Source of the DNA: a virus
Virus record (IMG/VR): IMGVR_UViG_3300020596_000005
Location: 1-36,730 of that record
Reading direction: 5' to 3' (one strand)
Length of the DNA stretch: 36,730 bases
The translations under genes and the position numbers were made by a program. Position 1 is the first letter of the stretch; every line of letters begins with the position of its first letter. This document shows positions 1 through 36,730 of this stretch, piece by piece. The notes under the pieces were generated by a model. The model made no database searches and was not told the origin of the DNA. It saw nothing but the letters and a program-made list of their open reading frames with translations.

Positions 1-778
1 TTTTAATGCTGGTCGCTATCAAGCTGACGGTGTAACAGTCCTAGCAACAACCTCCAACTCCGTCTATATAGGAGAAGGAACCAGAGGCTTTGACAACAGC
101 GACGACAACACAATTGTCATTGGTGACGGTGCAATCGGACTAGGGGCAAATACAGCAGTGTTGGGTAATAGTTCAATAACAAGGACAGTATTGCAGGGGA
201 ATGTAGGCATCGGTACTTCAACTCCATACGCCAAGCTTTCAGTCGTAGGTGAAATTGTTGGTCGAAACTTCACAGCAACATCAACAACCGCTTCAACATT
301 CCCTTATGCTTCAACAACCGCTCTAACTGTTTCTGGTTCACTATACAACTCATCCCTATCGAACGGATGTTTGAATGTAACCTCTGGTCTTATAAATTCA
401 ACTGGTTTGGCTTGTGGTAGTGGTGGTGGTGGAGCCTCGTTTGGCCCTGCGTTCACTCAAATAGCGACAACAACGTCAATAACAATCGATATGTGCAATA
501 CATCCTATGCAACATCATCAATTATTGCTCTTGGCGTGGGTACTTCAAATATAGCTGTTACTATGACGGGTTCAACATGTCTTGGGAAAGATTTGTGGGT
601 GGATGTATGGGCGCCTAGTACAGGCGTGATTGGAACAACTACATTCTCTGGAGTTTATTGGAGTGGACAAATCAATCCAGGTTCGAGTGTAGTGAATGGG
701 TTAACTGATAGGTTCCGCTTTGCTATGACAGCTTCTTCGACAACATTTATTAGCGCTAAACTTGATTCATCATACTAA
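1..778 (+). CDS. Repeat adhesin/tail-fibre-like surface protein, C-terminal part (continues from the right end of the window)
   Basis: Open from base 2 (no start inside needed) to TAA at 776-778, 258 residues. The first 93 bases equal the last 93 bases of the window and are in the same frame as the gene starting at 34221, so this is its C-terminal part; joined length would be about 1064 residues. Order: end of a YadA-head-like segment (IGEGTRGF...NTIVIGDGAIG), then a GIGTSTPYAKL module followed by Thr/Ser-rich TSTTASTF sequence, a Gly run near 423-435, and a unique C-terminal beta-type domain. This module type is known to me mainly from Parcubacteria surface proteins; that the protein is exported is inferred from the signal peptide on its 5' part. 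An internal ATG at 158 could be mistaken for the start, but the frame is open upstream. The next gene starts 1 nt after the stop. Confidence 0.85.
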   Translation, partial: FNAGRYQADGVTVLATTSNSVYIGEGTRGFDNSDDNTIVIGDGAIGLGANTAVLGNSSITRTVLQGNVGIGTSTPYAKLSVVGEIVGRNFTATSTTASTFPYASTTALTVSGSLYNSSLSNGCLNVTSGLINSTGLACGSGGGGASFGPAFTQIATTTSITIDMCNTSYATSSIIALGVGTSNIAVTMTGSTCLGKDLWVDVWAPSTGVIGTTTFSGVYWSGQINPGSSVVNGLTDRFRFAMTASSTTFISAKLDSSY

Positions 779-779
779 T

Positions 780-1112
780 ATGAAAACAATTAAAGTCCTT
801 ATTGATACAAATGTAATAGAGACAAATACTAAAGACAGTCTGGCCGTAGAGATAGAAAACATTGAGACGGTTACGGAAGGAGAGGTAGTGACGAGTTTGG
901 GTACAATCAAGGGAGACAACATAACCTTAAGTAGCAAGTATGTAGTGTATTTGGGAAATTTTAAAAATGAATTATTAGAAATTGCTGGCAAAATTGAGGC
1001 ACTAATTCAAAAGAGGTCAGAAATAGAAGCAGAAATCCTTCTTATCGAGCCAAAACTTGACCTCGCCATCTCTACCAAATTAGAAGATAGTGGTGTAATC
1101 GACAATAGATAA
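780..1112 (+). CDS. Hypothetical protein with C-terminal coiled coil
   Basis: 110 residues from ATG 780, one base after the adhesin stop; an in-frame ATG at 762 lies inside the adhesin gene and is less likely. The N-terminal half (residues about 1-60) is a Val/Thr/Ile-rich probable beta domain; residues about 62-95 are charged and heptad-like (KNELLEIAGKIEALIQ), predicting a short coiled coil. No signal peptide or membrane segment is seen and no family is recognised. Position between the adhesin and the LamG protein in a gapless run suggests a fibre-associated or chaperone-like role, which is inference only. Confidence 0.7.
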   Translation: MKTIKVLIDTNVIETNTKDSLAVEIENIETVTEGEVVTSLGTIKGDNITLSSKYVVYLGNFKNELLEIAGKIEALIQKRSEIEAEILLIEPKLDLAISTKLEDSGVIDNR

Positions 1113-1865
1113 ATGAAAATCATACTATTTATAATCATATTACTTGCAAGCAGTGGCGTTGCCTATGCCTTTGTTCCGCAGTACGGTATAAATAATGGTT
1201 TGATTAATTATTGGTCATTAGATAATCGAATGACCAGGTGGTCATCCCCTACTGCGGCAGATACCGTAGATTCAAGTGGTAATGAAAAGAACGGAGTATT
1301 AACTAACATGGCATTAAGTACAGCTCGTGTAACTGGAAAAATACAGACAGCCCTAAAATTTGACGGAACAAATGACTATGTTCTTACAACTAGCACAGGA
1401 GGGAGTAACCTTGCTGCCCTTACTATATCTGTATGGGTGAATACATCATCGGTGCAAACTAAAATGTTGATTGAGGATGGTACAGCATTTAATACGAATT
1501 CCTTTTATCTTTACTTAAACGCTGGCAAGCCAGAATTTGAGGTTTATGATGTCTCGAATGATACATTTAAAACAACAGCCAATTTGCCTCTAAATAGGTG
1601 GGTTCACGTTGTTGGAGTATGGAGGACGGGGGTAAGAGCTAATATTTTTATTGATGGTGCGCCTGCAGCGGGGGCAAGTACTGGGACTTTACAGAGCACA
1701 AACTTAATAACCGGGAATACCTTTGTAATGTTAGGCGCTCGTCCTGTAGGTAGTCCTGCAACTTCTTCAACTTTGAATTTTAACGGTTCCTTGGATGAGG
1801 TTCGTATCTTCGACCGCGCACTGTCTAATGGGGAGATAAGGGAATTATATAGACAAGGATTATGA
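1113..1865 (+). CDS. Secreted LamG-like (concanavalin A-like lectin/glucanase fold) protein
   Basis: 250 residues starting directly after the upstream TAA. Residues 1-19 form a clear Sec signal peptide (MKIILFIIILLASSGVAYA). The rest matches the LamG/Laminin_G_3 pattern: NYWSLDN near residue 33, DSSGNEKNG near 54-62, ALKFDGTNDYV near 81-91, a WVHVVGVWR strand with IFIDG, and a closing FNGSLDEVRIFDRALSNGEI block. Such domains bind glycans or proteins on surfaces and are frequent in Parcubacteria exported proteins. Together with the adhesin it forms a pair of exported surface proteins. Its last 4 bases (ATGA) overlap the next gene's start. A virion appendage is an alternative, but a signal peptide would be unusual for that. 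Confidence 0.82.
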   Translation: MKIILFIIILLASSGVAYAFVPQYGINNGLINYWSLDNRMTRWSSPTAADTVDSSGNEKNGVLTNMALSTARVTGKIQTALKFDGTNDYVLTTSTGGSNLAALTISVWVNTSSVQTKMLIEDGTAFNTNSFYLYLNAGKPEFEVYDVSNDTFKTTANLPLNRWVHVVGVWRTGVRANIFIDGAPAAGASTGTLQSTNLITGNTFVMLGARPVGSPATSSTLNFNGSLDEVRIFDRALSNGEIRELYRQGL

Positions 1866-2269
1866 TTGATCAAACCTTTTCAAAAGTAACAGCAAGGGAA
1901 CAACATGATGATATTATGGTAGCAGTTCATCGGGGTATTGTCGCCTCTAAAGCATCAGAAAGTGTCTTCATGGGGGAGTTCAAAAATACTTTGAAACAGG
2001 TTGAAGAATATCAGAAAACACAAAACGGTAGAACAGAAAAACATTCAATAGTATTAGAAGAACATTCGTTAAAACTACAAGGACTTAAAAATAGTGTTGA
2101 CGTAGCAACAACTAAAATATCGACGGCTCTATGGTCGTTTGGTATCACGTCTGGTATTATTGTTTTACTTATTGCAGTCATTTATGGTAATATGGTGAGA
2201 GACATTCAAGATACTTCTATTAATGTAAAAGAGTTAACAGCACTTGTTATTAAACAATATGAAAAATAA
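1862..2269 (+). CDS. Membrane-anchored coiled-coil protein (spanin/lysis-accessory candidate)
   Basis: 135 residues; start codon overlaps the LamG stop as ATGA. Residues about 35-85 are helical and charged (KQVEEYQKTQNGRTEKHSIVLEEH), and one strong transmembrane helix lies at about 92-114 (FGITSGIIVLLIAVIYG), followed by a short charged tail. No catalytic motif. Such single-TM coiled-coil proteins next to endolysins are common in phages, often labelled hemolysin XhlA-like or spanin-like; I do not see a diagnostic motif for either. Downstream the peptidase/lysin gene overlaps it by 11 nt, supporting a lysis-cassette role. Confidence 0.68.
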   Translation: MIDQTFSKVTAREQHDDIMVAVHRGIVASKASESVFMGEFKNTLKQVEEYQKTQNGRTEKHSIVLEEHSLKLQGLKNSVDVATTKISTALWSFGITSGIIVLLIAVIYGNMVRDIQDTSINVKELTALVIKQYEK

Positions 2270-3269
2270 TTGGTTTAAATCCTTCTTCACTTGGAATCCT
2301 CCACTTATAACAACGGGTGCTTTAATCAGCACTGATATTGCCCCTGTTGTATTTTCAGATATTGTCGGTAAAGCTAATGTAGTAAACTGGGATAAAACTA
2401 CCTTTCGTTCATTCCCTGTACTAAATCAAAAGTCATCATATATGTGTGGCGCTTTTAGTGCTAAAAAACATCTTGGTATAGGTTATGCGCAGAAGTATGG
2501 TAAATATATAGATTTTTCAGAAGAAGATGTTTATCAACGAAGACGAAATTTTGGTGAACAAGGGATGTATTTTACAGATATAACTAAAATAATGACAGAG
2601 GGTGTGACGTTAAAGATTTTAACCGATGTTAATATAAAAAGAGATTCTGATGCAGATGATTATGTGATAGCTCTTTGGAAACGTGATGTCGGCAAAGTAT
2701 TTGCTATTAGTCAACCTGTTTACATTCCGACAGGTGCTTTTGAAACAATAGCATCTGTGATACAAACTACAGGCAAATCAGTAATTGGACTAATGTATTT
2801 TACTTATGATGAATGGGCAACAGAATATCCAAAAGTAGTAAAATCTATGGATTATGATAATCCTTCTGCGTTTCATCACTTCATTAACTTCGTGGACTAT
2901 GTAACCATAAACGGTATTAAGTATTTAGTAGTTGAAGACTCTGCTCACTTTGGTGGTATTTCAGTACGCTTTGTTAGTAAACATTTTCTAGAGGCTAGAA
3001 ATATCCCTACACCTATGGCAAACGCTTATCTTATGAATTTCAAATTTGAGAAGACAGAGATAGCTAGTAAACATTTTACAGGTTCTATAATTTCATTACA
3101 GGAATGCCTACAAGCCTTGGGGTACTTTCCAACAAACGTGTCTAAGGCAGAGAATATTGGGCCAACAACTAAAAAAGCATTAGAGAAGCTCCAAAATGCT
3201 TATAGTTTACCTGTAACAATGAAGTTGGATGATGCAACACGGTCACTCGTGACGAGACTGTTCCCGTAG
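2259..3269 (+). CDS. Papain-like cysteine peptidase with C-terminal peptidoglycan-binding domain (candidate endolysin)
   Basis: 336 residues from ATG 2259; an in-frame ATG at 2244 would overlap the upstream gene more. Papain-like landmarks are visible: Gln57 exactly six residues before Cys63 in LNQKSSYMCGAFSA (papain has Gln19/Cys25), a His pair at 206-207 in SAFHHFINFVDYV, and Asp227 in VVEDSAHFGG where papain has the NSWG Asn. The last about 50 residues (SIISLQECLQALGYFP...GPTTKKALEKLQ) fit a PG_binding_1 domain. A cell-wall peptide hydrolase for lysis is the likely role, in line with the upstream TM protein and downstream holin candidate. No signal peptide is apparent, so it would need a holin. 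A structural or maturation peptidase is the alternative. Confidence 0.75.
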   Translation: MKNNWFKSFFTWNPPLITTGALISTDIAPVVFSDIVGKANVVNWDKTTFRSFPVLNQKSSYMCGAFSAKKHLGIGYAQKYGKYIDFSEEDVYQRRRNFGEQGMYFTDITKIMTEGVTLKILTDVNIKRDSDADDYVIALWKRDVGKVFAISQPVYIPTGAFETIASVIQTTGKSVIGLMYFTYDEWATEYPKVVKSMDYDNPSAFHHFINFVDYVTINGIKYLVVEDSAHFGGISVRFVSKHFLEARNIPTPMANAYLMNFKFEKTEIASKHFTGSIISLQECLQALGYFPTNVSKAENIGPTTKKALEKLQNAYSLPVTMKLDDATRSLVTRLFP

Positions 3270-13128: not shown

Positions 13129-13144
13129 TGTTTTGATTATATTA

Positions 13145-13455: not shown

Positions 13456-13518
13456 CCTGTTAAGCCATTTAAAGCCACCCTGACAGCATTTTGACATGAC
13501 AGGGTGGCAGTAAAAACG

Positions 13519-13545
13519 TGTTTCTATATTATTAGCCATATAATC
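13519..13545. repeat. 27-bp long-range inverted repeat, left arm
   Basis: Exactly complementary to 14040-14066, about 495 bp away. Key core: ATTATTAGCCATATAATC. The two arms enclose the right two-tier terminator, the TA tract and most of the smaller palindromes. Confidence 0.85.
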
Positions 13546-13685
13546 GTGACTAGCATTTTTATGAATAACCTCTTTACACCTCAATAATGAGAGCAAACAT
13601 TGTTAATAACAAAAGTTTAAAGTCAACAGGTACACTTTTTAGTAGTTGTATGTTAAGATAACAACAGCATTATTACTATGTGACT

Positions 13686-13738
13686 AACAAAAAGAATGTC
13701 TTTTGATAGCGTTGCTATCTCTTGACATTCTTTTTGTT
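13686..13738. terminator. Two-tier hairpin terminator, right
   Basis: Outer 15-bp stem AACAAAAAGAATGTC/GACATTCTTTTTGTT (13686-13700/13724-13738) with an inner GATAGC-GTT-GCTATC hairpin (13705-13719). Same architecture as the structure at 13087-13128 but unrelated sequence. Confidence 0.75.
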
Positions 13739-13763
13739 TATAGCTAATACCCGGCATGTCCAG

Positions 13764-13796
13764 CTCACCCAGCATGAGAAAAAGATGCTGGGTGAG
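13764..13796. repeat. Perfect 12-bp inverted repeat
   Basis: CTCACCCAGCAT (13764-13775) and ATGCTGGGTGAG (13785-13796), 9-nt spacer. Part of a family of CAGCTCACC/GGTGAG(A)GCTGG elements between 13750 and 14120. Confidence 0.85.
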
Positions 13797-13974
13797 ATAA
13801 TATGGTTTAACTTGAACGTACAAATCACAATTACCAGCTCACCTAGCATAATATAGAGAGATTGTATATATATATTTATATATATATATATATATATATA
13901 GGGGTTGCCCCCCCTTTTATGCTGGTTATGCTGGGTAAACTGTGGTATACTAACCAGTTAAGCCATATTATCTC
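13794..13974. other. TA-rich tract centred in nested inverted repeats (candidate unwinding/cruciform site)
   Basis: 13794-13811 and 13957-13974 are inverted complements at 17 of 18 positions; their centre (about 13884) lies in an alternating TA tract at 13865-13900. A GGGG-TTG-CCCC mini hairpin (13901-13911) and T-run follow. A further inverted pair is 13777-13791/14082-14096 (15 bp perfect). Such a layout is easily melted and fits a replication origin. Confidence 0.65.
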
Positions 13975-14039
13975 TTTTTCTGAGCTGGGTGAGAGCTGGG
14001 TAGATACTGGTCTTTACCCCATCACAACATGGGTATTGT

Positions 14040-14066
14040 GATTATATGGCTAATAATATAGAAACA
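14040..14066. repeat. 27-bp long-range inverted repeat, right arm
   Basis: Inverted complement of 13519-13545 with no mismatch. It is followed at 14067-14079 by TGTTTATAGCTAA, which also occurs directly at 13735-13747 after the right terminator. Confidence 0.85.
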
Positions 14067-14211
14067 TGTTTATAGCTAAGACCAGCATCTTTTTCTAAGC
14101 TGGACATCATGCAGGGTATTTACCTCATCACAACATTAAAAGATGTTTTTATAAAATTCTCCTTCTACAACAACCAAACCATTTCTAGGAGTATAGTTGA
14201 TGCCTTTATGG

Positions 14212-14313
14212 TATTAAACGCATTAAAACGCATTAAAACGCATTTTTGAGCCTCCTAGGCTATGTTATTAACTATGTTATTAACTATGTTATTAACATAA
14301 AAAGTTATCCACA
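14212..14313. other. Candidate replication origin core: tandem AT-rich repeats and DnaA box
   Basis: Tandem ATTAAAACGC units (about 14212-14243), then three perfect copies of TATGTTATTAAC (14261-14272, 14273-14284, 14285-14296), then an exact DnaA-box consensus TTATCCACA at 14305-14313. Three AT-rich 12/13-mers next to a strong DnaA box are the classical arrangement of a bacterial oriC unwinding element. The location between the divergent gene blocks fits. Confidence 0.7.
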
Positions 14314-14320
14314 GGTGCAC

Positions 14321-14348
14321 TTGCAATTATTTTACACAGTAGTATAAT
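14321..14348 (+). promoter_or_regulatory. Promoter of the rightward (late) block
   Basis: TTGCAA (14321-14326) and consensus TATAAT (14343-14348), spacer 16 bp, 37 nt before the ATG at 14386. The leader is TTAATTAATTAA-like without a Shine-Dalgarno sequence. Confidence 0.7.
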
Positions 14349-14385
14349 AACTATGTTAAGAAATTATTAGTAATTAATTAAATAT

Positions 14386-16784: not shown

Positions 16785-17972
16785 ATGTTTGAGTTAACAA
16801 CTGCTTATGACAAAATAAGTAAGCTTTCTAAAAGAATCCGAATAATCCAAGGTGGTACTTCGGCTAGCAAGACTATATCAATACTTCTGTATTTAATTGC
16901 CTATGCTCAAACAGATACGGTTCCTACTATCACTTCGGTGGTAGCAGAGTCTATCCCCCACTTAAAGAGAGGTGCCCTACGCGATTTTAAGAGGATACTT
17001 CAATCTCATCACTACTGGAAAGACAGTAATTGGAATGTCCAAGACTCTACCTACACTTTTGAAACAGGGTCGAGGATAGAGTTTTTCTCAACTGATAATG
17101 GGGATAAATTAAGAGGTGCAAGGCGTGACAGATGTTTTATGAACGAGGCTAATAACAATACCTTTGATGCCTTTGAACAATTAGAAGTTCGTACAAAAGA
17201 GTTTTTCATTTTAGACTATAACCCTACTAATGAGTTTTGGGTTCAGACCGAATTGATCGCAAAGAGAAGTGATGTTGATTTTATTGTTCTCACTTATTTA
17301 GATAATGAAGGATGTCCGCCTGAAATTAGAGAATCGATTGAGCAACGTAAGAATAGAAAAGGTTGGTGGAAAGTTTATGGTGAAGGTTTGCTTGGCGAGG
17401 TGGAAGGAAAGATATATACCAATTGGCAAATTATTGACGAGATACCTGTTAATGCACGATTAGAAAGGTACGGGTTAGATTTTGGTTATACAAATGATCC
17501 TACAGCCATTTCTGCGGTACTCAAGTATGACGGTGGGTATATTTTTGATGAGGTTGTTTACCAAAAAGGTTTGTCAAATAAACAAATTGCTGATACTTTA
17601 CTTGCGCTAGAAGCGCCTGCCTTAATTATTGCAGACAGTGCTGAACCCAAGTCAATTGATGAAATAAGGAGTTATGGACTTAATATTATCGGTGCTAGCA
17701 AAGGTAATGATTCAGTAGAATTTGGTATACAATTTATTCAAGACCAAAAGATATCAGTAACAAAGCGTTCGGTAAATATTATCAATGAATATCGAAATTA
17801 TTTATGGATGACTGATAGAAATGGTAAAATATTAAATAAACCGGAACACATGTTTAGCCATTCTCTAGACGGCATACGTTATGCAATGTCCTCTATCGGT
17901 CCAACTCCTAAATTAGTTGCAACTGTTCAAACACAAGGTGTAGAGCCAATGGACGAACTCCTCGGTTTTTGA
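16785..17972 (+). CDS. terL: Terminase large subunit (packaging ATPase-nuclease)
   Basis: 395 residues. Walker A GGTSASKT at 23-30, Walker B with catalytic carboxylate FMNEANN near 113-119, a coupling motif LDYNPTNEF near 139-147 of the PBSX/Terminase_3 group, and RNaseH-like nuclease aspartates in GLDFGYTND near 228-236, IIADSAEPKS near 284-293 and HSLDGIRYA near 360-368. It moves genomic DNA into the prohead and cuts it. Length and motif order are complete, so it should be functional. The start follows the small-subunit stop directly. Confidence 0.95.
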   Translation: MFELTTAYDKISKLSKRIRIIQGGTSASKTISILLYLIAYAQTDTVPTITSVVAESIPHLKRGALRDFKRILQSHHYWKDSNWNVQDSTYTFETGSRIEFFSTDNGDKLRGARRDRCFMNEANNNTFDAFEQLEVRTKEFFILDYNPTNEFWVQTELIAKRSDVDFIVLTYLDNEGCPPEIRESIEQRKNRKGWWKVYGEGLLGEVEGKIYTNWQIIDEIPVNARLERYGLDFGYTNDPTAISAVLKYDGGYIFDEVVYQKGLSNKQIADTLLALEAPALIIADSAEPKSIDEIRSYGLNIIGASKGNDSVEFGIQFIQDQKISVTKRSVNIINEYRNYLWMTDRNGKILNKPEHMFSHSLDGIRYAMSSIGPTPKLVATVQTQGVEPMDELLGF

Positions 17973-21371: not shown

Positions 21372-22499
21372 ATGGGAATAACAGAATTTATAGTAGGCCA
21401 ATCATTGGCTGCATTCACACCTATCAAATTTAATTTGAAGTTGATTGAATTGCTTTACAATGATTCGCTCTACAAATCTATAACCAACACCAAATATGAG
21501 GGGTTGATTAAAGACGCAGGAGACCGTGTTCGTGTTCGTACAGCAGGAAAAATAACTCTTGCAGATTATACAAAGGGTATGAAACTCGTCAGACAGGAAT
21601 TAACACCTACTACCGAGGATCTCATAGTTGATCAGCAGAAGTATTTTAGTTTCGGAGTGGATGATATTGATAAGTTTCAAAACGACACTAGTGCTATCAA
21701 TGAGTATGCCGCTTCTTCCAAGAGGGATATGGCAGAAGTTATAGACACTGCTTTGCTCGATTATGCCGCTAAGAATGTATACTTCTCAAATGCAGTTGGT
21801 ACAAACTATGCAACTGGTACAGTTTCTATTGCTGCAACAACAGGTGTTGTTACAGGTACAGGAACAACTTTTACCAGTGCTATGATCGGAGGTATTTTGA
21901 AAGTAGTAGGACAGACAAAGGGTTATCTAGTTACAGCACGTACATCAAACACATCAATTACAGTAGTTGACCAAGGTAGTACAACTTATACAGGAGGTTT
22001 ATTCTCCCTCGTTGCCGCTGGACAAGATTCCTTTATTATTTATGCCGCTACCGTAATCGCTGCTACAAAGTCAACGATTTACAAAAATCTTGTTGACCTT
22101 TCAACAGCTATGTCAGGTAACCTAGCGCCTCGTGATGGACGATGGATTGTCGTTAATGCCGCAGTAGAAGGCATTATCCGCCAAGCGCCAGAGTTTATTC
22201 CAGCCGTTCAGGGTGCTTATTCAGGTGTTGTAGAGTACGGACGTATTGGCTCGATTGCAGGTTTCAAGGTTTATACCTCGGAACTTATTGCAGGAAACAA
22301 TACAACAGGTTTTTATATAGTTGCAGGGACATCGGACTATATGTCTATGGCTATGCAAATTATGAAAGTGTCAGTTGTTCCTTCTGAAAGTGATCCACAG
22401 TCATTTATTACGACTGTAAAAGGACTTTTGGTCTACGGATTCAAAGCCTTTGAACAGAATCGCCGAAGAGGTGGAATGTTAAAAATAACAGTTTCATAA
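21372..22499 (+). CDS. Major capsid protein with an inserted beta domain
   Basis: 375 residues. N-terminal arm ITEFIVGQSLAAF, then SITNTKYEGLIKDAGDRVRVRT and VDDIDKFQ, and a late region with RDGRWIVVNAAVEGIIRQAPEF, IGSIAGFKVYTSELI and the C-terminal KGLLVYGFKAFEQNRRRGG all fit the HK97-like coat fold of the P22/podovirus-related type. Residues about 147-217 (GTVSIAATT... GTGTTFTSAM... TSNTSITVV) look like a separate surface beta domain inserted in the spine region. Transcribed after the scaffold; a hairpin follows at 22505-22530. Confidence 0.85.
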   Translation: MGITEFIVGQSLAAFTPIKFNLKLIELLYNDSLYKSITNTKYEGLIKDAGDRVRVRTAGKITLADYTKGMKLVRQELTPTTEDLIVDQQKYFSFGVDDIDKFQNDTSAINEYAASSKRDMAEVIDTALLDYAAKNVYFSNAVGTNYATGTVSIAATTGVVTGTGTTFTSAMIGGILKVVGQTKGYLVTARTSNTSITVVDQGSTTYTGGLFSLVAAGQDSFIIYAATVIAATKSTIYKNLVDLSTAMSGNLAPRDGRWIVVNAAVEGIIRQAPEFIPAVQGAYSGVVEYGRIGSIAGFKVYTSELIAGNNTTGFYIVAGTSDYMSMAMQIMKVSVVPSESDPQSFITTVKGLLVYGFKAFEQNRRRGGMLKITVS

Positions 22500-24757: not shown

Positions 24758-25045
24758 ATGAAATTATATAAAGTACAAAACTTTTTTAGTACAACTCTCA
24801 AAGAACCGTTAAATAAGGATTCAAAGTTTTTGGTGTTGGATAATATTCCTACAGTTCTTGGTGGATATTTTAAAGTTGGAAGTTCTACTATAATAGGTTT
24901 TGAAGAGGGTTTGCGTATAACTTTTAAAAGTCGGGATGATATAACCTTCCCAAAAGGGACGACAGTTGTCATGACTGTAACTGCTGAGCTTTTGAATGAT
25001 ATTATTGGTGAGATTAAACTAATTAAAAGCCATTTATGTCTATAA
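24758..25045 (+). CDS. Small tail protein, shares start motif with the next two genes
   Basis: 95 residues. Begins MKLYKVQNFFSTTLKEPL; the next two genes begin with the similar MSITTIENFYKETI and MSLYIIQNFYKQTV, so the three seem to share a common attachment element. The rest (KVGSSTIIGFEEGLRITFK) is beta. The GWLVISPNN block of the two following genes is missing here. Last 10 bases overlap the next start. Likely a fibre or baseplate component. Confidence 0.62.
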   Translation: MKLYKVQNFFSTTLKEPLNKDSKFLVLDNIPTVLGGYFKVGSSTIIGFEEGLRITFKSRDDITFPKGTTVVMTVTAELLNDIIGEIKLIKSHLCL

Positions 25046-25500
25046 CTACAATTGAAAATTTCTATAAAGAAACAATACGCCGTAAACTTACAAGTATAAT
25101 TGCGGCTAATATTTATGTATCAGCATTACCTGTGCCAACATCAGGCTGGCTTGTTATTTCACCAAACAATGAATCATTAAGAGAGATCATAAAATATTCC
25201 GCAGTAGGATCAGACGTAAATGGTACTTTCGTTACTGTATCTCTGGACGTTGATAGAGGTGTTGGAGGTACTACAGCACAGACACATGAGGTCGGAGAGT
25301 TGGTGAATATGAATATCACAGCTGAACACTGGAGTGAGTTAAGTACGACCCTAGATAGTAAGCCCTTAATTTCAACAGGTATTTTGGCACCCACTTCGAC
25401 ACCAACAAAAATTGGTGACATTTTTGTGAATACGACAGGGAGTAAGGTTTATATATCAAAAGGCACTTCGTCTAGTGCAGACTGGTTAATTCTAAACTAA
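25036..25500 (+). CDS. Short tail-fibre-like protein (paralogue of the next gene)
   Basis: 154 residues. Shares with the following gene the block GWLVISPNNESLREIIKYS, the block RGVGGTTAQTHEVGELVNM and the segment NITAEHW; these fit a conserved fibre N-terminal attachment domain. The C-terminal third differs and reads TGILAPTSTPTKIGDIFVNT, a short beta motif common in fibre tips (KIGDIFVNTTGSKVYISKG). Likely a short fibre or a hub for the longer one. Confidence 0.7.
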   Translation: MSITTIENFYKETIRRKLTSIIAANIYVSALPVPTSGWLVISPNNESLREIIKYSAVGSDVNGTFVTVSLDVDRGVGGTTAQTHEVGELVNMNITAEHWSELSTTLDSKPLISTGILAPTSTPTKIGDIFVNTTGSKVYISKGTSSSADWLILN

Positions 25501-25501
25501 T

Positions 25502-26830
25502 ATGTCACTCTACATCATTCAAAATTTCTATAAGCAAACGGTTTCGCAGACGTGGGAAACTGGTACTGGTATTCGCTACATTTCAGTCAAGCCTACGCCT
25601 TCTACTGGCTGGCTTGTTATTTCTCCAAACAATGACTCGTTAAGAGAAATAATATTCTACTCATCTACTGGTACAGATGCTACAGGAGACTATGTAAATG
25701 TTACTACAAGAGGCGTGGGGGGTACTACAGAGCAAACACATGAAATAGGTGAGTTAGCACGAATGAACATCACTGCTGAACATTTTGACCAAATTAGTGA
25801 TGCTATTGACCAGATTGTGGCAGCTGGCGCACAGGACGGAACAGTGTCAATTAAAGGAATAGTAAAAGGTGCATCTGAAACAGAGTTAGGTTCTGTAGAG
25901 GAGGCAACAACTGCTGAAGTTTTAGCAGAAACAGCTACTGGAGCTACAGGGGCGAAGCTATTTGTTACACCTGCGAAGTTGAAAGCTAGTACCATTAAAT
26001 ATGGTGGCACAGCTGCAGACGGAGATCTTACTATTTCTAGCGGAACAACTACGCTTACATCTGATAAGAATTATGGTACCTTAACTGTTAATGTTGGTGC
26101 AACTTTAATAACTAATGGATATGCTGTATTTGCTCTTTCCGCCATAATCTGTGCAGGAACTATCCATAATAAAGGAAACCATGGAGTTTTGAATGTTTTT
26201 GGAACAGGAGCTGGGGGTGGAACATTTACTGCAGGAACTGATGGAAAAACAGGACCGTTAGGTCCAGTAGTCGGAGTAGCAGGAACTGCAAAAACGTGTC
26301 TTGGTTCATATGGAGCTGCGGGTGGCAGTGCAAATGGTGGTACTAGAGCGGGCGGTGCTGGTGGTGTAGCTACGTCTGAAACTGTTGTAATGAGACCAAT
26401 GGTTGCTACAGGGAATATCACCGCAGGTGTTGAGACTTCAGCTACAGAGTTATACCGATTCGTTGCTTCAACTAACGGAATATTGCTTTCTGCTTCGGCA
26501 GGTTCAGGTTCAGGGGCAGGTGATGGTAGCTTTAGTGGAGGAGGTTCAGGTGGTTCAGGGGGTGTTTTGTTTTTATCTTCTCCTACAATAACTAACACAG
26601 GCACAATTAGTGTAGCGGGAGGAAATGGTGGAAATGGTGGCACATATGGTGGAGGAGGTGGAGGAGGTTCAGGTGGAAATGTATTTCTTATTTATAAAAC
26701 ACTAACAGAAGGGACAATTACTCTTACAGGAGGAACTGGTGGGACAGGCGGTTTGAGTAGCACAAATGGGGACACAGGTTTAACAGGTAAACTTTATAAA
26801 GTTAAAGTAACTAATAATTTAATAGCTTAA
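25502..26830 (+). CDS. Tail fibre with Gly-rich beta-helix domain
   Basis: 442 residues. Residues about 1-100 are the paralogue of the previous gene (GWLVISPNNDSLREII, RGVGGTTEQTHEIGEL). Then KGASETELGSVEEATTAEVLAETATGATGAKLFVTPAKL is a phage-fibre linker pattern, and the C-terminal half is Gly/Ser/Thr-rich (GGSGGV, GGNGGNGGTYGGGGGG, TGGTGGTGG) as in Gly-rich receptor-binding fibre tips. This suggests host recognition. Starts 1 base after the previous stop. The Gly runs produce many false open frames on the other strand. Confidence 0.75.
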   Translation: MSLYIIQNFYKQTVSQTWETGTGIRYISVKPTPSTGWLVISPNNDSLREIIFYSSTGTDATGDYVNVTTRGVGGTTEQTHEIGELARMNITAEHFDQISDAIDQIVAAGAQDGTVSIKGIVKGASETELGSVEEATTAEVLAETATGATGAKLFVTPAKLKASTIKYGGTAADGDLTISSGTTTLTSDKNYGTLTVNVGATLITNGYAVFALSAIICAGTIHNKGNHGVLNVFGTGAGGGTFTAGTDGKTGPLGPVVGVAGTAKTCLGSYGAAGGSANGGTRAGGAGGVATSETVVMRPMVATGNITAGVETSATELYRFVASTNGILLSASAGSGSGAGDGSFSGGGSGGSGGVLFLSSPTITNTGTISVAGGNGGNGGTYGGGGGGGSGGNVFLIYKTLTEGTITLTGGTGGTGGLSSTNGDTGLTGKLYKVKVTNNLIA

Positions 26831-28897: not shown

Positions 28898-31800
28898 ATG
28901 AGTATATTTGATTCAATTCTTAACTTTTCTAACACGATTCTAAAGGACGGCAAGCAAGCTGTGACAGGTGCTTTTGATGTAACTAAAAACTTTATTACAC
29001 CCGATCGTGGTTTTGACCTAATGTCCCCAATGGATTTGATTAAAGGGAAAATGGCAACACAAAATGACCCTGTCCTTCGAGCTAAACTTGATACACAGTA
29101 CAAGTCACAACAACCCACTTTTAAAGAAAATCTTTTAACTGTACCAAAAATAGCTTCTGAAATGATAAGTGGTGTAGGTAATCTTGCAGGAAGTGCATTG
29201 GGTAACAACCCTTTGTTTACTAAGGATAGTTTATTGGGAAAGTTAGGTGTTCCTGGTGCTGGTAAAACTCTAGAAGACATCTCACGAACAAAGGTAGGTG
29301 GTACTTTAGCTAATGCAGGAGGAAGGATAGAGGAGTTTGCAGTACCAAAGACAGCTGGACAAGCACAGGCCATGAGGATAGGTGATGTACTCTCCGTATT
29401 CCCTATGGGTAGTGTAAAATCGGTGGCTACTGCTTCTAAAATAATTGCAGCTTCTAAGGATGTTAATATTATTACTGGGCAGTTAAAAAAATTAGGCATA
29501 TTACCCGATGTTGTTAAAGATTTAGCACCTAAAATGGCAATCATCAATGATGAAAAATTTATCAATGAGTTATTAACTCAAAGGCTCAAACCTGAAAGAG
29601 TACCAGCAAAAACCGCTATAGCAAAAAATATCCATCCAGAGGATAGAGCTTTGATGTTGAAATACATTGATAATGTTCGATTGAAAAAGCACTTAACAGG
29701 TCCAGATTTATCAAAGGCTGATTTAAAAGGACTTTCTTTTCTTGCAGAAAAGTGGAAAATAAATACTGATCGTACACCTATATCAATGGCTGATGTCTTT
29801 GAAAAGATAGTAGAAGGTCGAAAGAAAGTTGTAGGTACAGCAATACCTGGGTCTATAGCCAAACCTAGACAAAACACGCAAGGTGGTTTCATTAACTTCG
29901 GTAAAATCTTTGAAGATATTACAGGAGTAGGAAAAAAGAAAGAAGTATCGCAATTGAAATCACCAGATATAGTGGCACAGAGTCCTGTTGTAAAGAGTGA
30001 TGTTTCATTAGAAGCTAGACAGATAGTACCAGAAAGAATATTAGAAAACAAAATAGCATCAAAACCAATCCGCTTAGATCCTTTTTCTCAAAACTCCAAT
30101 CCCCCCCCATCCACCCTAAAAGGAACACAGCTCCAGTCCCAAACAAAGTCAAAAGAATTAATTCCATCATTAGATTATAATGTTAATTTAATAAAACGTC
30201 CTTCATTAGTTAATACTGTAGCACCTAATACTCCTCTACGCAATTTAGATACTGTGGATAACTTAACAGCTAATCCTAAGGCCTTTAAAAAGGCAGAGGG
30301 TAAGATAAGTGAATCATGGGTAAAATTACGCGAAACTGTGCAAGATAATTGGATACGAGTAAAAAATATTCAAAGACAAAAAGGTGTTGTAGTTAAAGAG
30401 GGTGCTAACCCATATCAAGCAGAAACATTATTCCACGGTAGAGTAGCGTCAAGATTGAATGTGGTAAAAGATACAATTAAAGAGGTTGATAAAGATATTG
30501 TATCCCTATCCAAATCATTAAATATACCCGATAAGCAGATAACTAAAGAAGTAAACGACTATCTTCATGCAACTCATGCGCCAGAAAGAAACCTCCGATA
30601 TGGTGACGGTGCTTCTGGTATAACTAATGCAGAAGCTAAAACAATTCTTGATGGGATAAACCTATCTCCACGAGCAAAAGAAATTAAAGATTTTGCTCTA
30701 AAACTATCAGATGTAAATAAGTCTGTATTGACTGTATTGAAAGATTCACAGGTGATAGATCAAGCTACTTTTGATACTCTAACAAAAACATATAAGAATC
30801 ATGTTCCGCTCCAAAGAGTTATGGAAGGACAGGATATAGTAGGGTCTCTTACTGGTAGGGGATTCAATGTTAAAGGTTCGGGTATTATAAGAGCAAAGGG
30901 GAGTGAAAGAGAAGTTGCTGATATAATTACAAACATTACAGCTTCGGCAGAACAGGCTATAATTAGAGCTGAAAAGAATCTTGTTGACTTAAATACATTA
31001 AATTTTGCTAGAAATAATAAAAATTTAGGATTATTTGAGGAAATAAATGCTAGGGTTATTGGCAAAGATTTTGATGGTAAAATATTAAAAGAACAGATTA
31101 ACGACCCACAGATTTTGTCACTTCGAGAGAATGGAAAACCTGTTTATTTAAAGATAAACGATCCCCATATTGCTGCAGCATTAAAAGGAGTGAATGTAGA
31201 ACACATGCCTTCGGTCTTGAAATGGGTTTCGGAATTTACAAGATTGTATTCAGGGCTTCACACTAGATTCAATTACGAGTTTGCACTATCGAACAAGGTA
31301 AGGGATATTCAGGAAATGGTTGTATATATGGCTTCACAAAAAGGGGTTGGTTTTAAGGGGGCTTCTAGTGTTGTTACAAGAGAGCCTAAAAGCATAAAGG
31401 CTGTCTTAGATTCTATGAGGGGTATTGATTCAGAAGGGGCAAGGTTATACAACCAAATGAAACTTGACGGTGGAACTACTGGTGGTGTAGGACTTTCTAC
31501 ACGAAAACAAATAGAAGTTGATATAGATAAATTAAGAAAATTAAATAGAAGCAATCCTAGGCAAGCCGCTCAAAAGGTAATAGAAACTGTTGATAATTGG
31601 AATACATTATTTGAAGACTCGACTCGTCTATCAGTTTATAAGGAAGCTTTGGAAAGAGGATTAAGCCGTAATGAGGCGGCTGTTTTGGCTAAAGAATCTA
31701 CAATAAACTTTAATAAGAAAGGCACAGGAGGCTCTATTATAAATGGATTATACATGTTCTCAAACGCTTCCATTCAGGGTTCAACTAAAATGCTCCGAGC

Positions 31801-33241
31801 TATGAAGGATCCTAAAGTGGCAGCAACAGTTATTTCTTCTGTAGGATTAGGTGTATATGGTGTTAATTCATGGAACGACAAAGTTGACCCCGACTGGAGA
31901 GACAAAATATCGAAGTGGGATAGAAGTTCTAATATTACGATAATGCTACCTTCTCTCGGAAAAGCTAACTATATTACTATTCCAGTTTCGTGGGGATTAA
32001 AACCTATTAAGGTTGCTATGGAACATAGTTATGACCTTATAACGGGCAAGGGTGATAGTATAGGAAGTGCTTTTAAGGGTATCGCTACCGCTGCAATAGA
32101 GGCTTATAACCCTCTTGCAGGTAATGACAGTATTGTAAAGACTCTAACTCCAACATTCTTAAAAACACCAATGGAAATATACTCTAATAAATCATGGAGT
32201 GGAGGAATGATAGAGCCAAATTTCAATAATAACAAACCAGATTCGCAAAATTATTTTAGTAGTCTTACTAAGTCTTTTTCAGGTCGTAGTTCTATAAAAG
32301 TATCTAATGTCCTCTCAAATATTGGAATTGAAATATCACCTGCTAACTTCAATTATGCTTTTGAACAATATATTGGTGGAGTTGGTAGAGCTTTCAGTAG
32401 AGTCATAAACACATCATCGTCTCTTATTAAAGGGGAAGAATTGGAGACAAAAGAATTACCGGTTATCAATAGATTTTATAAAACAGAAATTGATAGGTCT
32501 ACAACAAACCCCAAAACCATTGCACAAGAAACTCTAGCACTAATGAAAACAGGTGTTGATGAGAAAACAGCAGAGGCCTCTTTCGAAGGTAAGATGAAAG
32601 AATATAAAACTGGAGAAAAGAAACGCCGCATGGATATGGAGCCAAGAAAGTATGCTACTGCCTTGTTGGAGGCAATGAAGAATAAATCAATGACAGAAGG
32701 GGAAGCGGAGAGAGAGTTCATGGAATATGAGAGGAGTATAGAAGTTAAAGAAAAGAGGAAAACTGAAATGGAGAAGGAGGTACCCAAAAGAGGTCCACTT
32801 CAACTCTTGGAAGATTATGCTAAAGCCTATGCCACAGATCCTATGAACGCTGCTAGGGGAACATTTACTTCGGAAAAACTAAAGAAGGTGGAGGGTAATG
32901 CTGTTGTCTTTGGACGTATGGGAGGAGTTAATTATCTTGACAAAGGCGGTTCAGAGGAGGTGATCGGTAGAAAACTAAAGGAAATGGGTATACCTGCTTC
33001 CAAAAGGGATAGATATAATTTAGAACATATTGTACCACTGATCACTGGTGGTAATAATTCTGAATCAAATTTAGTAGTTGTGTCTCGTAGTCTTCATGAT
33101 TCCTATACCAATTGGGATGTTCTTGCTGGCAAAGCTGTTACATCAGGCAGGATGACAAGAGGAGAGGTAACCGATATCGCTCGAAAGTTAAAAGTGAGTA
33201 GAAGTATTACTATAGATGAAGCAATAAGTTTATTAAAATGA
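28898..33241 (+). CDS. Giant virion (LPD38-type polyvalent) protein with C-terminal HNH nuclease
   Basis: 1447 residues, the largest gene. Residues about 905-960 (DSTRLSVYKEALERGLSRNEAAVLAKESTINFNKKG) and the LYMFSNASIQGSTKMLRAM stretch match my recollection of the LPD38 large polyvalent-protein domain of phages. The 1050-1250 region holds the LYxxTKSF-type helical domain. The extreme C-terminus has an HNH-type motif: LEHIVPLITGGNNSESNLVV... with His1377, Asn1391 and His1400. Thus a nuclease is fused to a virion protein, probably injected with the genome. Targets (host DNA or phage nicks) are unknown. A TATAAT stands just after its end for the next gene. Confidence 0.75.
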   Translation: MSIFDSILNFSNTILKDGKQAVTGAFDVTKNFITPDRGFDLMSPMDLIKGKMATQNDPVLRAKLDTQYKSQQPTFKENLLTVPKIASEMISGVGNLAGSALGNNPLFTKDSLLGKLGVPGAGKTLEDISRTKVGGTLANAGGRIEEFAVPKTAGQAQAMRIGDVLSVFPMGSVKSVATASKIIAASKDVNIITGQLKKLGILPDVVKDLAPKMAIINDEKFINELLTQRLKPERVPAKTAIAKNIHPEDRALMLKYIDNVRLKKHLTGPDLSKADLKGLSFLAEKWKINTDRTPISMADVFEKIVEGRKKVVGTAIPGSIAKPRQNTQGGFINFGKIFEDITGVGKKKEVSQLKSPDIVAQSPVVKSDVSLEARQIVPERILENKIASKPIRLDPFSQNSNPPPSTLKGTQLQSQTKSKELIPSLDYNVNLIKRPSLVNTVAPNTPLRNLDTVDNLTANPKAFKKAEGKISESWVKLRETVQDNWIRVKNIQRQKGVVVKEGANPYQAETLFHGRVASRLNVVKDTIKEVDKDIVSLSKSLNIPDKQITKEVNDYLHATHAPERNLRYGDGASGITNAEAKTILDGINLSPRAKEIKDFALKLSDVNKSVLTVLKDSQVIDQATFDTLTKTYKNHVPLQRVMEGQDIVGSLTGRGFNVKGSGIIRAKGSEREVADIITNITASAEQAIIRAEKNLVDLNTLNFARNNKNLGLFEEINARVIGKDFDGKILKEQINDPQILSLRENGKPVYLKINDPHIAAALKGVNVEHMPSVLKWVSEFTRLYSGLHTRFNYEFALSNKVRDIQEMVVYMASQKGVGFKGASSVVTREPKSIKAVLDSMRGIDSEGARLYNQMKLDGGTTGGVGLSTRKQIEVDIDKLRKLNRSNPRQAAQKVIETVDNWNTLFEDSTRLSVYKEALERGLSRNEAAVLAKESTINFNKKGTGGSIINGLYMFSNASIQGSTKMLRAMKDPKVAATVISSVGLGVYGVNSWNDKVDPDWRDKISKWDRSSNITIMLPSLGKANYITIPVSWGLKPIKVAMEHSYDLITGKGDSIGSAFKGIATAAIEAYNPLAGNDSIVKTLTPTFLKTPMEIYSNKSWSGGMIEPNFNNNKPDSQNYFSSLTKSFSGRSSIKVSNVLSNIGIEISPANFNYAFEQYIGGVGRAFSRVINTSSSLIKGEELETKELPVINRFYKTEIDRSTTNPKTIAQETLALMKTGVDEKTAEASFEGKMKEYKTGEKKRRMDMEPRKYATALLEAMKNKSMTEGEAEREFMEYERSIEVKEKRKTEMEKEVPKRGPLQLLEDYAKAYATDPMNAARGTFTSEKLKKVEGNAVVFGRMGGVNYLDKGGSEEVIGRKLKEMGIPASKRDRYNLEHIVPLITGGNNSESNLVVVSRSLHDSYTNWDVLAGKAVTSGRMTRGEVTDIARKLKVSRSITIDEAISLLK

Positions 33242-33255: not shown

Positions 33256-34218
33256 ATGGAAAAAAACCTAGAAATGGAGAGGCAAAAATATAAAATGACA
33301 AAGGAAGGAATTGGTAGCGTATCAACTTCTATAGATGACTTTTCCAAGAAAATGGAAAAGATTATTTTGAAAACAAAGTATGCTTCTATGTACGACGTAG
33401 AACAATTAACTTCTTTGTTTTTAGATAGTATTAAAAGTTTAAAATCAGATGTTGATGAAAAAAATAACGAAGTAAACACACTTTCTGTTAAGAATAAAGA
33501 TGAGTTATCAAAATCTATTAAAAGTTTAAATACAAAATTTGATGAAACATTATCAAAACAACATAGTAATTTACTTCAAAATGTTTCTAACTCTATAGAT
33601 ACTTTACGAAAAGAAATACCTGTAGTACCAGAATTAACGGATATATATTCTAAACTTGATATTCTATATTCTAAACTAAATGAATTTGGAAAGACTGGGG
33701 GTGAGTTAAGAAGAATAGAGGGGGAGGTAAAAAGTAACCTTCTTTCTATTAAAAACGAAATACCGAAACTAGACACTGGAGAAGAGTTAATTGCAAAGAT
33801 ACAAGCTGTAAAAAAACAATGGCTCTCTATCGAAGCCATTGACGGAGATTTTAATACAAAGGTTACAAAACAATTTGGTGGTGGTAATACTAGGCCATTG
33901 GATTTGCTTGTAAACGGTGTTAGTTATGGTGGTGTTAGAGAAATAAACTTTAAAGGTGGTGGTGTATCAGCAGATATTGTTAGTGGCGTTATGACTGTTA
34001 CTATAGCTGGGGGCGGTTCAACTGCAATAGACAATGAAGTACTAACTGGTTCTGGAACAGCATTTTCACTGGCTAATTCTCCAGTAGTGGGTAGTGTTAA
34101 GGTGTATGGGCTTGGTCAAAGATTAATACTAAGTACTGATTACAGTATAAGTAGTAACAATATAACAACAGTTAGTTCTTGGAGTGCTGGAGAGATTATT
34201 AGTGATTATTTAATATAA
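33256..34218 (+). CDS. Coiled-coil tail fibre protein
   Basis: 320 residues. Residues about 1-190 are charged and heptad-rich (KSDVDEKNNEVNTLSVKNKDEL, KLDILYSKLNEFGK), a long trimeric coiled coil. Residues about 210-320 are beta (NTRPLDLLVNGVSYGG, GGVSADIVSGVMTVTIAGGG, VGSVKVYGLGQRLILSTDYSISS), a type of fibre tip I know from metagenomic phage fibres. No signal peptide, in contrast to the next gene. It likely attaches at the tail. The next gene follows after 2 bases. Confidence 0.72.
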   Translation: MEKNLEMERQKYKMTKEGIGSVSTSIDDFSKKMEKIILKTKYASMYDVEQLTSLFLDSIKSLKSDVDEKNNEVNTLSVKNKDELSKSIKSLNTKFDETLSKQHSNLLQNVSNSIDTLRKEIPVVPELTDIYSKLDILYSKLNEFGKTGGELRRIEGEVKSNLLSIKNEIPKLDTGEELIAKIQAVKKQWLSIEAIDGDFNTKVTKQFGGGNTRPLDLLVNGVSYGGVREINFKGGGVSADIVSGVMTVTIAGGGSTAIDNEVLTGSGTAFSLANSPVVGSVKVYGLGQRLILSTDYSISSNNITTVSSWSAGEIISDYLI

Positions 34219-34220: not shown

Positions 34221-36730
34221 ATGAAATATATTCTTTTTTTATTACTACTTGTATTCCCAAATGTCATATTTGCACAAACTGTATTTAGGAGTAGGCAAGT
34301 AGGCACAACACCTATAAGTGGTTATTATTTACAAACTAATGGGACAGTATCAACATGGGCACCTGTATCAGGTGGTGGAGGTTCTGGCGGTGGCACATTC
34401 TCGACAACAACAGTGGTATCACGTCTTTTACAATTTCCTTACACATCACTTGTGACCTCACTAGACACCTCTGCAACAACAACATCAACGTGGTGGTTTG
34501 ACCCTGTACGACAGATAAATTACATTGGTGCAAACGTTGGAATTGGTACTTCAACTCCATACGCCAAACTTTCAGTTGTAGGTGAAATTGTTGGACGAAA
34601 CTTCACAGCAACCTCTACAACCGCAACTTCAACATTCGCAGGTAACATTGTTATAGGAAATGGTTATACAGCTCCTTACTTAAATGGACTATTAAGTTCA
34701 CCAACACAGGTTCAGTTAACAAATAAAGTTGCTGACTTAACTTCAAATTTGGTTTTAGGTAATACTGACCAAGGTATTTATAGTACAGGTGGTATTACTA
34801 TGGTTAATGCTAGAAGTACAGGTGGTCTATTTGGTACTTATTACGGATATTTAGGATTCTCTGGTAATAACTTTGCAGCCTTAACAGGACTTCCCCCTAA
34901 CAGTATGGTGTTGAATACAACAGATGGCAGTATTGTTCAGGGTGCAACTTCGGCTAATAATGCTTCATCAACTATCGCGTGGGCAGTTGGTAGCGGATAT
35001 GTCACAGCTAACTACGATATGGTATTAAGAAATATAACTACTCAAGTATCAGGTGCATCTACTGGAGGACTTGGTTTAGGCACAACAACACCTTATGCAA
35101 GACTTGCTATTGTCGCCTCAACAACCGCTCCATATCCATACTTTATAATAGCCTCAACAACAAATGCTGTTGCAACTCAAGGCGCTGTATTTCAGGTTAA
35201 TAATAATGGCAACGTCGGCATCGGTACTGCTAACCCAAACTACAAACTAGAAATCAACGGTTCTGCTTCTACCACTGCCCTATATCTACCAAACACCACT
35301 GGAGCTAATGTTGGTATTATCTACAAAGGCACAACACCATTCATACATGACTTTAAGCCAGTAAGTAATAATGGTTTCAATACTTTTGTTGGTTTTGATG
35401 CAGGTAACCTCACTATGGGTTCTACCACAGGAGCAGTTACTCTTTCTTCATACAATACTGCTGTTGGTTATCAAGCTTTGAAGGCTAATACGGAAGGAGG
35501 TTTAAACACCGCACAAGGATATCGTTCTCTTTACCTCAACAGCACTGGAAATAACAACTCCGCACAGGGTGCGTATTCTCTTTACCTCAACACCACTGGA
35601 AACAGTAACTCCGCACAGGGTTTGCAAGCTCTCAACTCCAACAGCACTGGAAATAACAACTCCGCACATGGTGCATATTCTCTCTTTAACAACACCACTG
35701 GAAGTAACAACTCCGCACAAGGTTTTGCATCTCTCTACTCCAACACCACTGGTGGCTTTAACTCCGCACATGGTATGTATTCTCTCTACTTCAACACCAC
35801 TGGAAGTCAAAACACCGCACTGGGTTATCAATCTCTCTTTACCAACACCACTGGAAGTAACAATGTAGCTATAGGTTTTAATGCTGGTCGCTATCAAGCT
35901 GACGGTGTAACAGTCCTAGCAACAACCTCCAACTCCGTCTATATAGGAGAAGGAACCAGAGGCTTTGACAACAGCGACGACAACACAATTGTCATTGGTG
36001 ACAATGCAATCGGACTAGGAGCAAATACAGCAGTGTTGGGTAATAGTTCAATAACAAGGACAGTATTGCAGGGGAATGTAGGCATCGGTACTGCTAACCC
36101 AAACTACAAACTAGAAATCAACGGTTCTGCTTCTACCACTGCCCTATATCTACCAAACACCACTGGAGCTAATGTTGGTATTATCTACAAAGGCACAACA
36201 CCATTCATACATGACTTTAAGCCAGTAAGTAATAATGGTTTCAATACTTTTGTTGGTTTTGATGCAGGTAACCTCACTATGGGTTCTACCACAGGAGCAG
36301 TTACTCTTTCTTCATACAATACTGCTGTTGGTTATCAAGCTTTGAAGGCTAATACGGAAGGAGGTTTCAACACCGCAGAAGGATTTCGTTCTCTCTTTAC
36401 CAACACCACTGGAAGTAACAACTCCGCACAGGGTGCGTATTCTCTCAACTCCAACACCACTGGAAGTAACAACTCCGCACAGGGTACATATTCTATCTTC
36501 TCCAACACCACTGGAAATAACAACTCCGCACAAGGTTTTGCATCTCTCTACTCCAACACCACTGGAAATAACAACTCCGCACAGGGTTATAAATCTCTCA
36601 ACTCCAACACCACTGGAAGTAACAATGTAGCTATAGGTTTTAATGCTGGTCGCTATCAAGCTGACGGTGTAACAGTCCTAGCAACAACCTCCAACTCCGT
36701 CTATATAGGAGAAGGAACCAGAGGCTTTGA
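34221..36730 (+). CDS. Repeat adhesin with signal peptide, N-terminal part (runs off the window end, continues at base 1)
   Basis: Open frame from ATG 34221 to the window end, no stop; continues in frame at 1-778 (93-base overlap removed, total about 1064 residues). Residues 1-18 are a Sec signal peptide (MKYILFLLLLVFPNVIFA). Then a Gly-rich linker, GIGTSTPYAKL near residue 110, TSTTATSTF, a beta domain, NVGIGTANPNYKLEI near 327, and 16-residue YadA-head-like units of type NSAxGxxSLxxNTTGxx: seven units (residues about 428-551), then after a repeated module five more (about 716-806). YadA-head-like repeats form trimeric beta-roll stalks that bind ligands. Parcubacteria-style modules suggest the host origin. 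Either a host-surface adhesin or an exported fibre. Confidence 0.85.
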   Translation, partial: MKYILFLLLLVFPNVIFAQTVFRSRQVGTTPISGYYLQTNGTVSTWAPVSGGGGSGGGTFSTTTVVSRLLQFPYTSLVTSLDTSATTTSTWWFDPVRQINYIGANVGIGTSTPYAKLSVVGEIVGRNFTATSTTATSTFAGNIVIGNGYTAPYLNGLLSSPTQVQLTNKVADLTSNLVLGNTDQGIYSTGGITMVNARSTGGLFGTYYGYLGFSGNNFAALTGLPPNSMVLNTTDGSIVQGATSANNASSTIAWAVGSGYVTANYDMVLRNITTQVSGASTGGLGLGTTTPYARLAIVASTTAPYPYFIIASTTNAVATQGAVFQVNNNGNVGIGTANPNYKLEINGSASTTALYLPNTTGANVGIIYKGTTPFIHDFKPVSNNGFNTFVGFDAGNLTMGSTTGAVTLSSYNTAVGYQALKANTEGGLNTAQGYRSLYLNSTGNNNSAQGAYSLYLNTTGNSNSAQGLQALNSNSTGNNNSAHGAYSLFNNTTGSNNSAQGFASLYSNTTGGFNSAHGMYSLYFNTTGSQNTALGYQSLFTNTTGSNNVAIGFNAGRYQADGVTVLATTSNSVYIGEGTRGFDNSDDNTIVIGDNAIGLGANTAVLGNSSITRTVLQGNVGIGTANPNYKLEINGSASTTALYLPNTTGANVGIIYKGTTPFIHDFKPVSNNGFNTFVGFDAGNLTMGSTTGAVTLSSYNTAVGYQALKANTEGGFNTAEGFRSLFTNTTGSNNSAQGAYSLNSNTTGSNNSAQGTYSIFSNTTGNNNSAQGFASLYSNTTGNNNSAQGYKSLNSNTTGSNNVAIGFNAGRYQADGVTVLATTSNSVYIGEGTRGF
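35217..35503 (+). repeat. 287-bp direct repeat, copy 1, in the adhesin gene
   Basis: Identical to 36081-36367 (offset 864) base by base over 287 bases. It codes the GIGTANPNYKLEI module to the start of the head-like repeats. Confidence 0.95.
35506..35875 (+). repeat. 48-bp tandem repeats (seven units), adhesin
   Basis: Each 48-bp unit codes about 16 residues around CACTGGAAATAACAACTCCG. Most codons are kept while two short segments per unit vary. Confidence 0.8.
35877..36088 (+). repeat. Repeat matching the left end of the window (third-type adhesin segment)
   Basis: Matches 1-212 with only three differences (in the GGTGACGG/GGTGACAA and GGGGCA/GGAGCA area). The first 93 bases are also the last 93 of the window, so this segment occurs twice in the circle and the window end repeats it. 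Confidence 0.9.
36081..36367 (+). repeat. 287-bp direct repeat, copy 2, in the adhesin gene
   Basis: Exact second copy of 35217-35503. Recombination between copies would delete 864 bp in frame. Confidence 0.95.
36370..36637 (+). repeat. 48-bp tandem repeats (five units), adhesin
   Basis: Second block of 48-bp units, coding SLxxNTTG units. Fewer units than block one, showing copy-number change after duplication. Confidence 0.8.
36638..36730. repeat. Terminal 93-bp direct overlap with bases 1-93
   Basis: Bases 36638-36730 equal bases 1-93. The adhesin frame is continuous across the join, which supports a circular or terminally redundant molecule of about 36,637 bp. The same 93 bases also occur at 35877-35969, so the join lies inside a repeat. 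Confidence 0.9.

Follow-up and report, generated by a model that had tools for sequence, protein, structure and literature searches.

A candidate fibre/lectin module with predicted export signals in an uncultivated tailed phage

Phage tail fibres are regarded as being built in the cytoplasm, and a search of the literature returned no report of tail fibres bearing signal peptides. The closest described relatives of the fibre considered here are the tail fibres and tail spikes with NTAxGYxSLxxNTTGxxN-type repeats (phrog_23837, phrog_6002 and phrog_4636), encoded by Pelagibacter phages HTVC111P/112P, Roseobacter phage CRP-1, Methylophilales phage Venkman and cyanophage P-SSM2. The present fibre shares with them a homologous repeat block (approximately half of the query, 35–39% identity) and a location near tail genes, which in several of these phages is also near lysis genes. 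Unlike the present fibre, these proteins start with polar N-termini and lack a signal peptide (17 of 17 checked). Phage lambda offers a precedent for an exported envelope protein encoded among tail-fibre genes: its Lom, which sits in the host envelope, is a signal-peptide-bearing outer-membrane protein whose gene lies between the tail spike and tail fibre genes (PMC12309495). The locus described here likewise encodes an exported-type protein in such a region; however, Lom is a beta-barrel expressed in lysogeny, whereas here the signal is borne by the fibre itself and by a lectin, and their operon is a late one. Genes for concanavalin-A-like lectins have been described in phages of groundwater Patescibacteriota and proposed to promote adhesion (PMC12911398), so that the lectin-adhesion idea for Patescibacteria phages is already published as a proposal. 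The lectin of the present locus is similarly of the LamG/ConA-like type and belongs to a probable Patescibacteria phage, but the published genes are treated as auxiliary metabolic genes, and that report mentions no signal peptides and, in its accessible text, names no fibre partner.

The window, i.e., the whole stretch of DNA that was analysed, corresponds to a virus record 36,730 bases long, and the fibre gene is divided between its two ends. The 5′ part is an open reading frame at 34221..36728 (836 aa) that runs open into the window end, and the 3′ part (2..778, 258 aa) is open at the window start. The two ends share an exact 93-nt overlap; with one copy removed, both frames join in phase into a fibre of 1064 aa ending at 778, in agreement with the first-pass annotation, which had traced a frame of about 1064 residues from 34221 through this overlap to 778. 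As delineated from the ORF, repeat analysis and PHROG matches, the N-terminal 836 residues (34221..36730, + strand) comprise a signal peptide (residues 1–18), GIGTxTP modules and two blocks of 17-aa repeats, while the C-terminal part past the junction (2..778, + strand) holds a GIGTSTP/TSTTASTF module, two Cys pairs and a small terminal domain. A module of ~860 nt, consisting of a GIGTANP segment and 17-aa repeats, is present twice within the fibre at an offset of 864 (35208..36071 and, continuing into the window end, 36072..36730; both + strand), and the module end is present a third time. The terminal direct repeat at 1..93 (+ strand) recurs internally at 35876–35968 and at the other end at 36638–36730. 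Since this 93-nt sequence occurs three times and lies inside the duplicated module, the end overlap is not an independent proof of circularity and the repeat copy number of the fibre is uncertain; an assembler would yield such an overlap at a repeat, and the true number of blocks may differ. A collapsed repeat, with the circle or the two-block fibre misassembled, would be in keeping with the threefold overlap and with the contig of a near relative in a separate record (L083), which, like the window record, breaks within the repeats. Nevertheless, such an artefact is very improbable. L083 independently carries the repeat block, uninterrupted and in frame, into the same C-terminal region, and its flanking proteins are mostly 97–100% identical to those of the window (a primase fragment is 54% identical); the fibre junction is thereby independently supported by sequence. 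Furthermore, the signal peptide and the upstream genes lie outside the repeat, and copy number alone is really at risk.

The repeat period is 51 nt, i.e., 17 aa; the two blocks noted in the first-pass annotation are present, but not the 16-residue unit that it had assigned to them. The best PHROG matches of the fibre are to phrog_23837 (E=2.8e-43; virion structural), phrog_6002 (2.3e-30; virion structural) and phrog_4636 (5.8e-19; tail spike). Among 50,697 phage records, 71 match the repeats, every one at <60% identity. None of the 17 annotated cultured-phage fibre homologues checked passes the signal-peptide rule applied here, and together with these matches this places the repeat blocks with ordinary virion fibres. 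Considered as a tail fibre or tail spike, the protein thus shows virion-fibre homology and a location in the structural/tail module, but carries a signal peptide in place of the N-terminus of a cytoplasmic protein. The most variable positions of the repeat are 12, 13, 16 and 17. The repeat blocks are 81–88% identical (the second window block and the L083 block, each compared with the first block), against mostly 97–100% for the neighbouring proteins. This block-limited divergence points to local diversification of a putative binding face, to which unequal repeat registers could add, and both it and the four variable positions fit a predicted binding surface. No reverse transcriptase of a diversity-generating retroelement was found among the ORFs scanned; according to a survey, phage targets of such elements lack the signal peptides that bacterial ones have (PMC6199706).

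The repeats had earlier been likened to YadA heads. Membership of the YadA-type trimeric adhesins is unsupported and was rejected at the Pfam level, as no Pfam family, YadA_head included, matched at E<=0.1. In an AlphaFold2 model, each repeat forms regular short strands at a pLDDT of ~60–70 only, and this low-confidence fold had no significant structural match. The model of the C-terminal domain was unusable (pLDDT 32), and PDB sequence searches gave no matches.

Signal peptides were called by a simple home-made rule based on n-region charge, a hydrophobic core and small residues at −3/−1, the sequence features of Sec export, all of which the fibre possesses. The predicted peptide is MKYILFLLLLVFPNVIFA, with Q as the following residue (34221..34274, + strand). 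The Sec signal peptide proposed in the first-pass annotation is upheld by this rule: the fibre scores 5.01, and a value of 5.0 is reached by only 1 of 5000 shuffles of its first 60 residues. Of shuffled internal fragments, 3.2% pass the rule at any score. Out of 38 window ORFs scored, the LamG gene reaches 5.71, and none of the other 36 is strong, the third passing ORF being weak (2.76, cut at residue 37). Both the fibre and the LamG protein display a charged n-region, a hydrophobic core and an A-X-A-like site. No recognisable surface anchor was noticed in the mature fibre (lipobox, sortase motif or transmembrane segment). The joined fibre contains four Cys, whose positions permit two local pairs.

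The genes around the fibre form a tight operon on the + strand with almost no intergenic space. Upstream lie an LPD38 protein (28898–33241, 1447 aa), a type frequent in phages as ejection-type proteins, and a 320-aa coiled-coil fibre-like protein without signal peptide (33256..34218), a possible virion fibre or anchor, which ends 2 nt before the fibre gene. The C-terminus of the LPD38 protein (~1370–1426) has a weak HNH-nuclease match (phrog_6050, E=0.00028). The fibre stop at 778 is followed by an ATG at 781 that opens the gene of a 110-aa protein (781..1112), and the LamG/concanavalin-A-like lectin gene, two genes downstream of the fibre, starts directly after the stop of this neighbour (1113..1865; Laminin_G_3, E=1.7e-26; signal peptide by the same rule, MKIILFIIILLASSGVAYA, with F following). 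A peptidoglycan-binding-domain protein (2244..3269; PG_binding_1, E=1.9e-7, scanned from 2262) is a probable endolysin.

The window virus is a tailed phage, probably podovirus-like. PHROG matches identify the terminase large subunit (16785–17972) and the major head protein (21372–22499), along with a DNA primase, helicase, exonuclease and DNA methyltransferase; no integrase was found among the ORFs scanned. Elsewhere in the window, two consecutive genes at 25036–26830 have related starts (IENFYK/IQNFYK, SGWLVISPNN) and resemble a duplicated tail/baseplate protein. A stretch of ~1.4 kb between leftward replication genes and rightward genes (12979–14385) contains a single short ORF (69 aa) and short direct repeats near 13154–13414, and may be an origin or control region. 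Small ORFs whose peptides contain internal repeats are clustered at 6153–7466 (− strand); among them are near-identical KQEQKNEAY..AYEAIRDPAYK proteins at 6153–6440 and 6612–6800 and, at 7017–7466, a protein of 149 aa in which Cys-rich NCTFNTG/CTFKTG repeats stand in tandem.

The host of the window virus is likely to be an ultra-small member of the Patescibacteria, judging from the sequence matches. The first matches of the GIGTSTPYAKLSVVGEIVGRNFTATSTTATSTF segment in bacterial genomes are to Patescibacteria, with weaker ones in Bacteroidota and others; the GIGTxTP/TSTTATSTF modules described in the first-pass annotation as Parcubacteria-type do occur in the fibre, and among bacterial genomes their closest relatives lie in Patescibacteria. 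Secreted GIGTxTP surface proteins of this phylum share with the fibre GIGTSTPYAKLSVVGEIV and TATSTTATSTF modules (47–90% identity over short stretches); many are large, and several have signal peptides. Unlike the fibre, they are for the most part larger, often >1000 aa, and have C-termini rich in Pro, Glu and Thr, whereas the repeat blocks of the fibre are of phage type and its gene belongs to a phage operon. Patescibacteria genomes also encode small secreted LamG proteins similar in build to the window lectin. The terminase large subunit is 66% identical over 95 aa to a fragment encoded on a contig from a genome that shares its phylum with a Parcubacteria genome, but a full-length match of the subunit (40%) lies in the phylum of Dyadobacter. 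On the former contig (L123; G190 contig C48) a large ORF occupies the portal position after the terminase fragment, possibly that of a related phage in a bin. LamG is uninformative on the host phylum, with matches in 70 of 380 genomes of the Parcubacteria phylum and 31 of 198 genomes of the Dyadobacter phylum.

The combination of signal peptide and fibre is not an accident of the window genome, since five other uncultivated viral contigs (L086, L087, L095, L098 and L103, of which L100 is a near copy) carry GIGTxTP fibres with a signal peptide, among 21 loci that match the GIGTxTP segment. The first-pass annotation had named, as evidence against its reading, homologues that are all structural fibres devoid of a signal peptide; this is the case for the 17 cultured ones checked and not for these five. 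In each of the five, a signal-peptide gene follows the fibre immediately. Over the three genes downstream, signal peptides occur in 8 of 15 genes after signal-peptide fibres vs 3 of 39 after the others (Fisher p=0.00065, an optimistic value because the pattern had been spotted by eye before counting). A LamG_3 lectin with a signal peptide is part of three modules (the window, L086 and L103), and a beta-helix protein is part of that in L098. Evidence of phage origin is firm for L087 (terminase, portal and major head protein), comprises a major head protein in L098 and an amidase with weak head-closure matches in L103, and is weak or missing in those genes of L086 and L095 that were scanned against PHROG. 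Further signal-peptide-like genes lie upstream of the fibre at 5205–8555 in L098, right after the major head protein, and at 722–3987 in L086; thus, export signals in these two contigs are not confined to fibre and lectin. The Cys number is even, with mostly local pairing, in the fibres of the window, L087 (10), L095 (6) and L103 (6), but L086 and L098 have one each, so disulfides are not general among signal-peptide fibres. A segment of ~235 residues is 60% identical between the fibres of L087 (8144–10891) and the window (34221–36730), and the two terminases have different best PHROGs, a combination that points to unrelated phages having exchanged segments of their fibres.

Among other viral relatives of the LamG protein, 2 of 70 (distinct and with a closed 5′ end) bear a signal peptide. 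Neighbours of signal-peptide LamG genes carry one in 3 of 7 cases vs 9 of 215 (p=0.004; two cases only). Phages thus seldom carry lectins with a signal peptide, and where they do, other exported genes tend to lie nearby, although two cases are few. The window LamG protein and the LamG protein and fibre of L103 had no match in cultured phages. Viral contigs queried with the whole window fibre or its C-terminal domain, with the LPD38 protein or with the fibres of L087 and L095 gave only the same records or no relatives. Taken together, the comparisons suggest a rare, recurrent fibre/lectin module with putative export signals in uncultivated phages.

Predicted export of the fibre is plausible, and the sequence favours it, as the same signal is found on fibre and lectin genes of other contigs and is absent from the cultured homologues. 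At the sequence level export is well supported, by the fibre signal peptide, that of the LamG protein in the same operon, the pairable Cys and the recurrence of the module. Our tentative preference is for a fibre that leaves by the Sec pathway late in infection and has its action outside the cytoplasm, probably at the surface of the dying host. The fibre of this late fibre/lysis operon would pass through the host Sec pathway together with the LamG lectin; the signal would be cleaved between FA and Q, the mature fibre would leave the cytoplasm and its four Cys would form two disulfides. Fibre and lectin would then bind surface glycans of the infected cell and, by occupying receptors, may make superinfection less frequent and keep progeny from re-adsorbing to the cell that is being lysed. 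Against host-surface action stand the homology of the repeat blocks to virion fibres that lack the signal, the want of a recognisable anchor, the late-operon position, which leaves little time for an exclusion function, the single Cys in L086 and L098, the simplicity of the signal-peptide rule and the weak or missing phage evidence for L086 and L095.

The homology to virion fibres in PHROG and BLAST comparisons would be accommodated if the exported fibre folded and formed its disulfides outside the cell and docked on virions at lysis or later, possibly through the coiled-coil protein at 33256–34218, making it a true receptor-binding fibre with an unusual route. The paired Cys, the variable repeat face and the position of the fibre beside structural genes after a coiled-coil fibre-like protein, a layout common to L087, L095, L098 and L086, agree with this. 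We know of no tailed phage that assembles its fibres extracytoplasmically, however; dilution after lysis would be costly and the lectin would need the same route, so that we consider this unlikely. It is slightly less likely still that the fibre is an ordinary virion fibre whose hydrophobic N-terminus serves as an anchor into the tail or a membrane during assembly or entry. Every checked cultured homologue of the repeat block is such a fibre with no export signal, yet those proteins have polar N-termini instead, and full signal features are found on fibre and LamG protein here and on neighbouring genes in the five other contigs. Display of the fibre on a Patescibacterium, changing its attachment to a partner bacterium to the benefit of the phage, would draw on the Patescibacteria-type modules, the secreted GIGTxTP and LamG proteins of that phylum and the published adhesion proposals for Patescibacteria-phage lectins (PMC12911398). 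The adhesion claim for the fibre is, nevertheless, speculation and highly improbable: the operon is late and contains lysis genes, no integrase was seen among the ORFs scanned and the host is only likely to be a Patescibacterium. Moreover, the sequences do not favour an effect peculiar to the attachment of Patescibacteria, because the signal-peptide fibres of L086, L098 and L103 lack the Patescibacteria-type TST-rich modules.

Beyond the single locus, it is quite possible, if short of probable, that certain tailed phages, several with Patescibacteria hosts, form a class whose fibre and lectin are Sec-exported, to work at the host surface or to be added to virions outside the cell; none of the cultured homologues examined is of this kind. 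If true, some phages would send a fibre and lectin out of the cell, either for late control of the host surface or for completion of virions outside. The published view of Patescibacteria-phage lectins as aids to host adhesion would be affected as well, since their genes may be components of a fibre module and not auxiliary metabolic genes.
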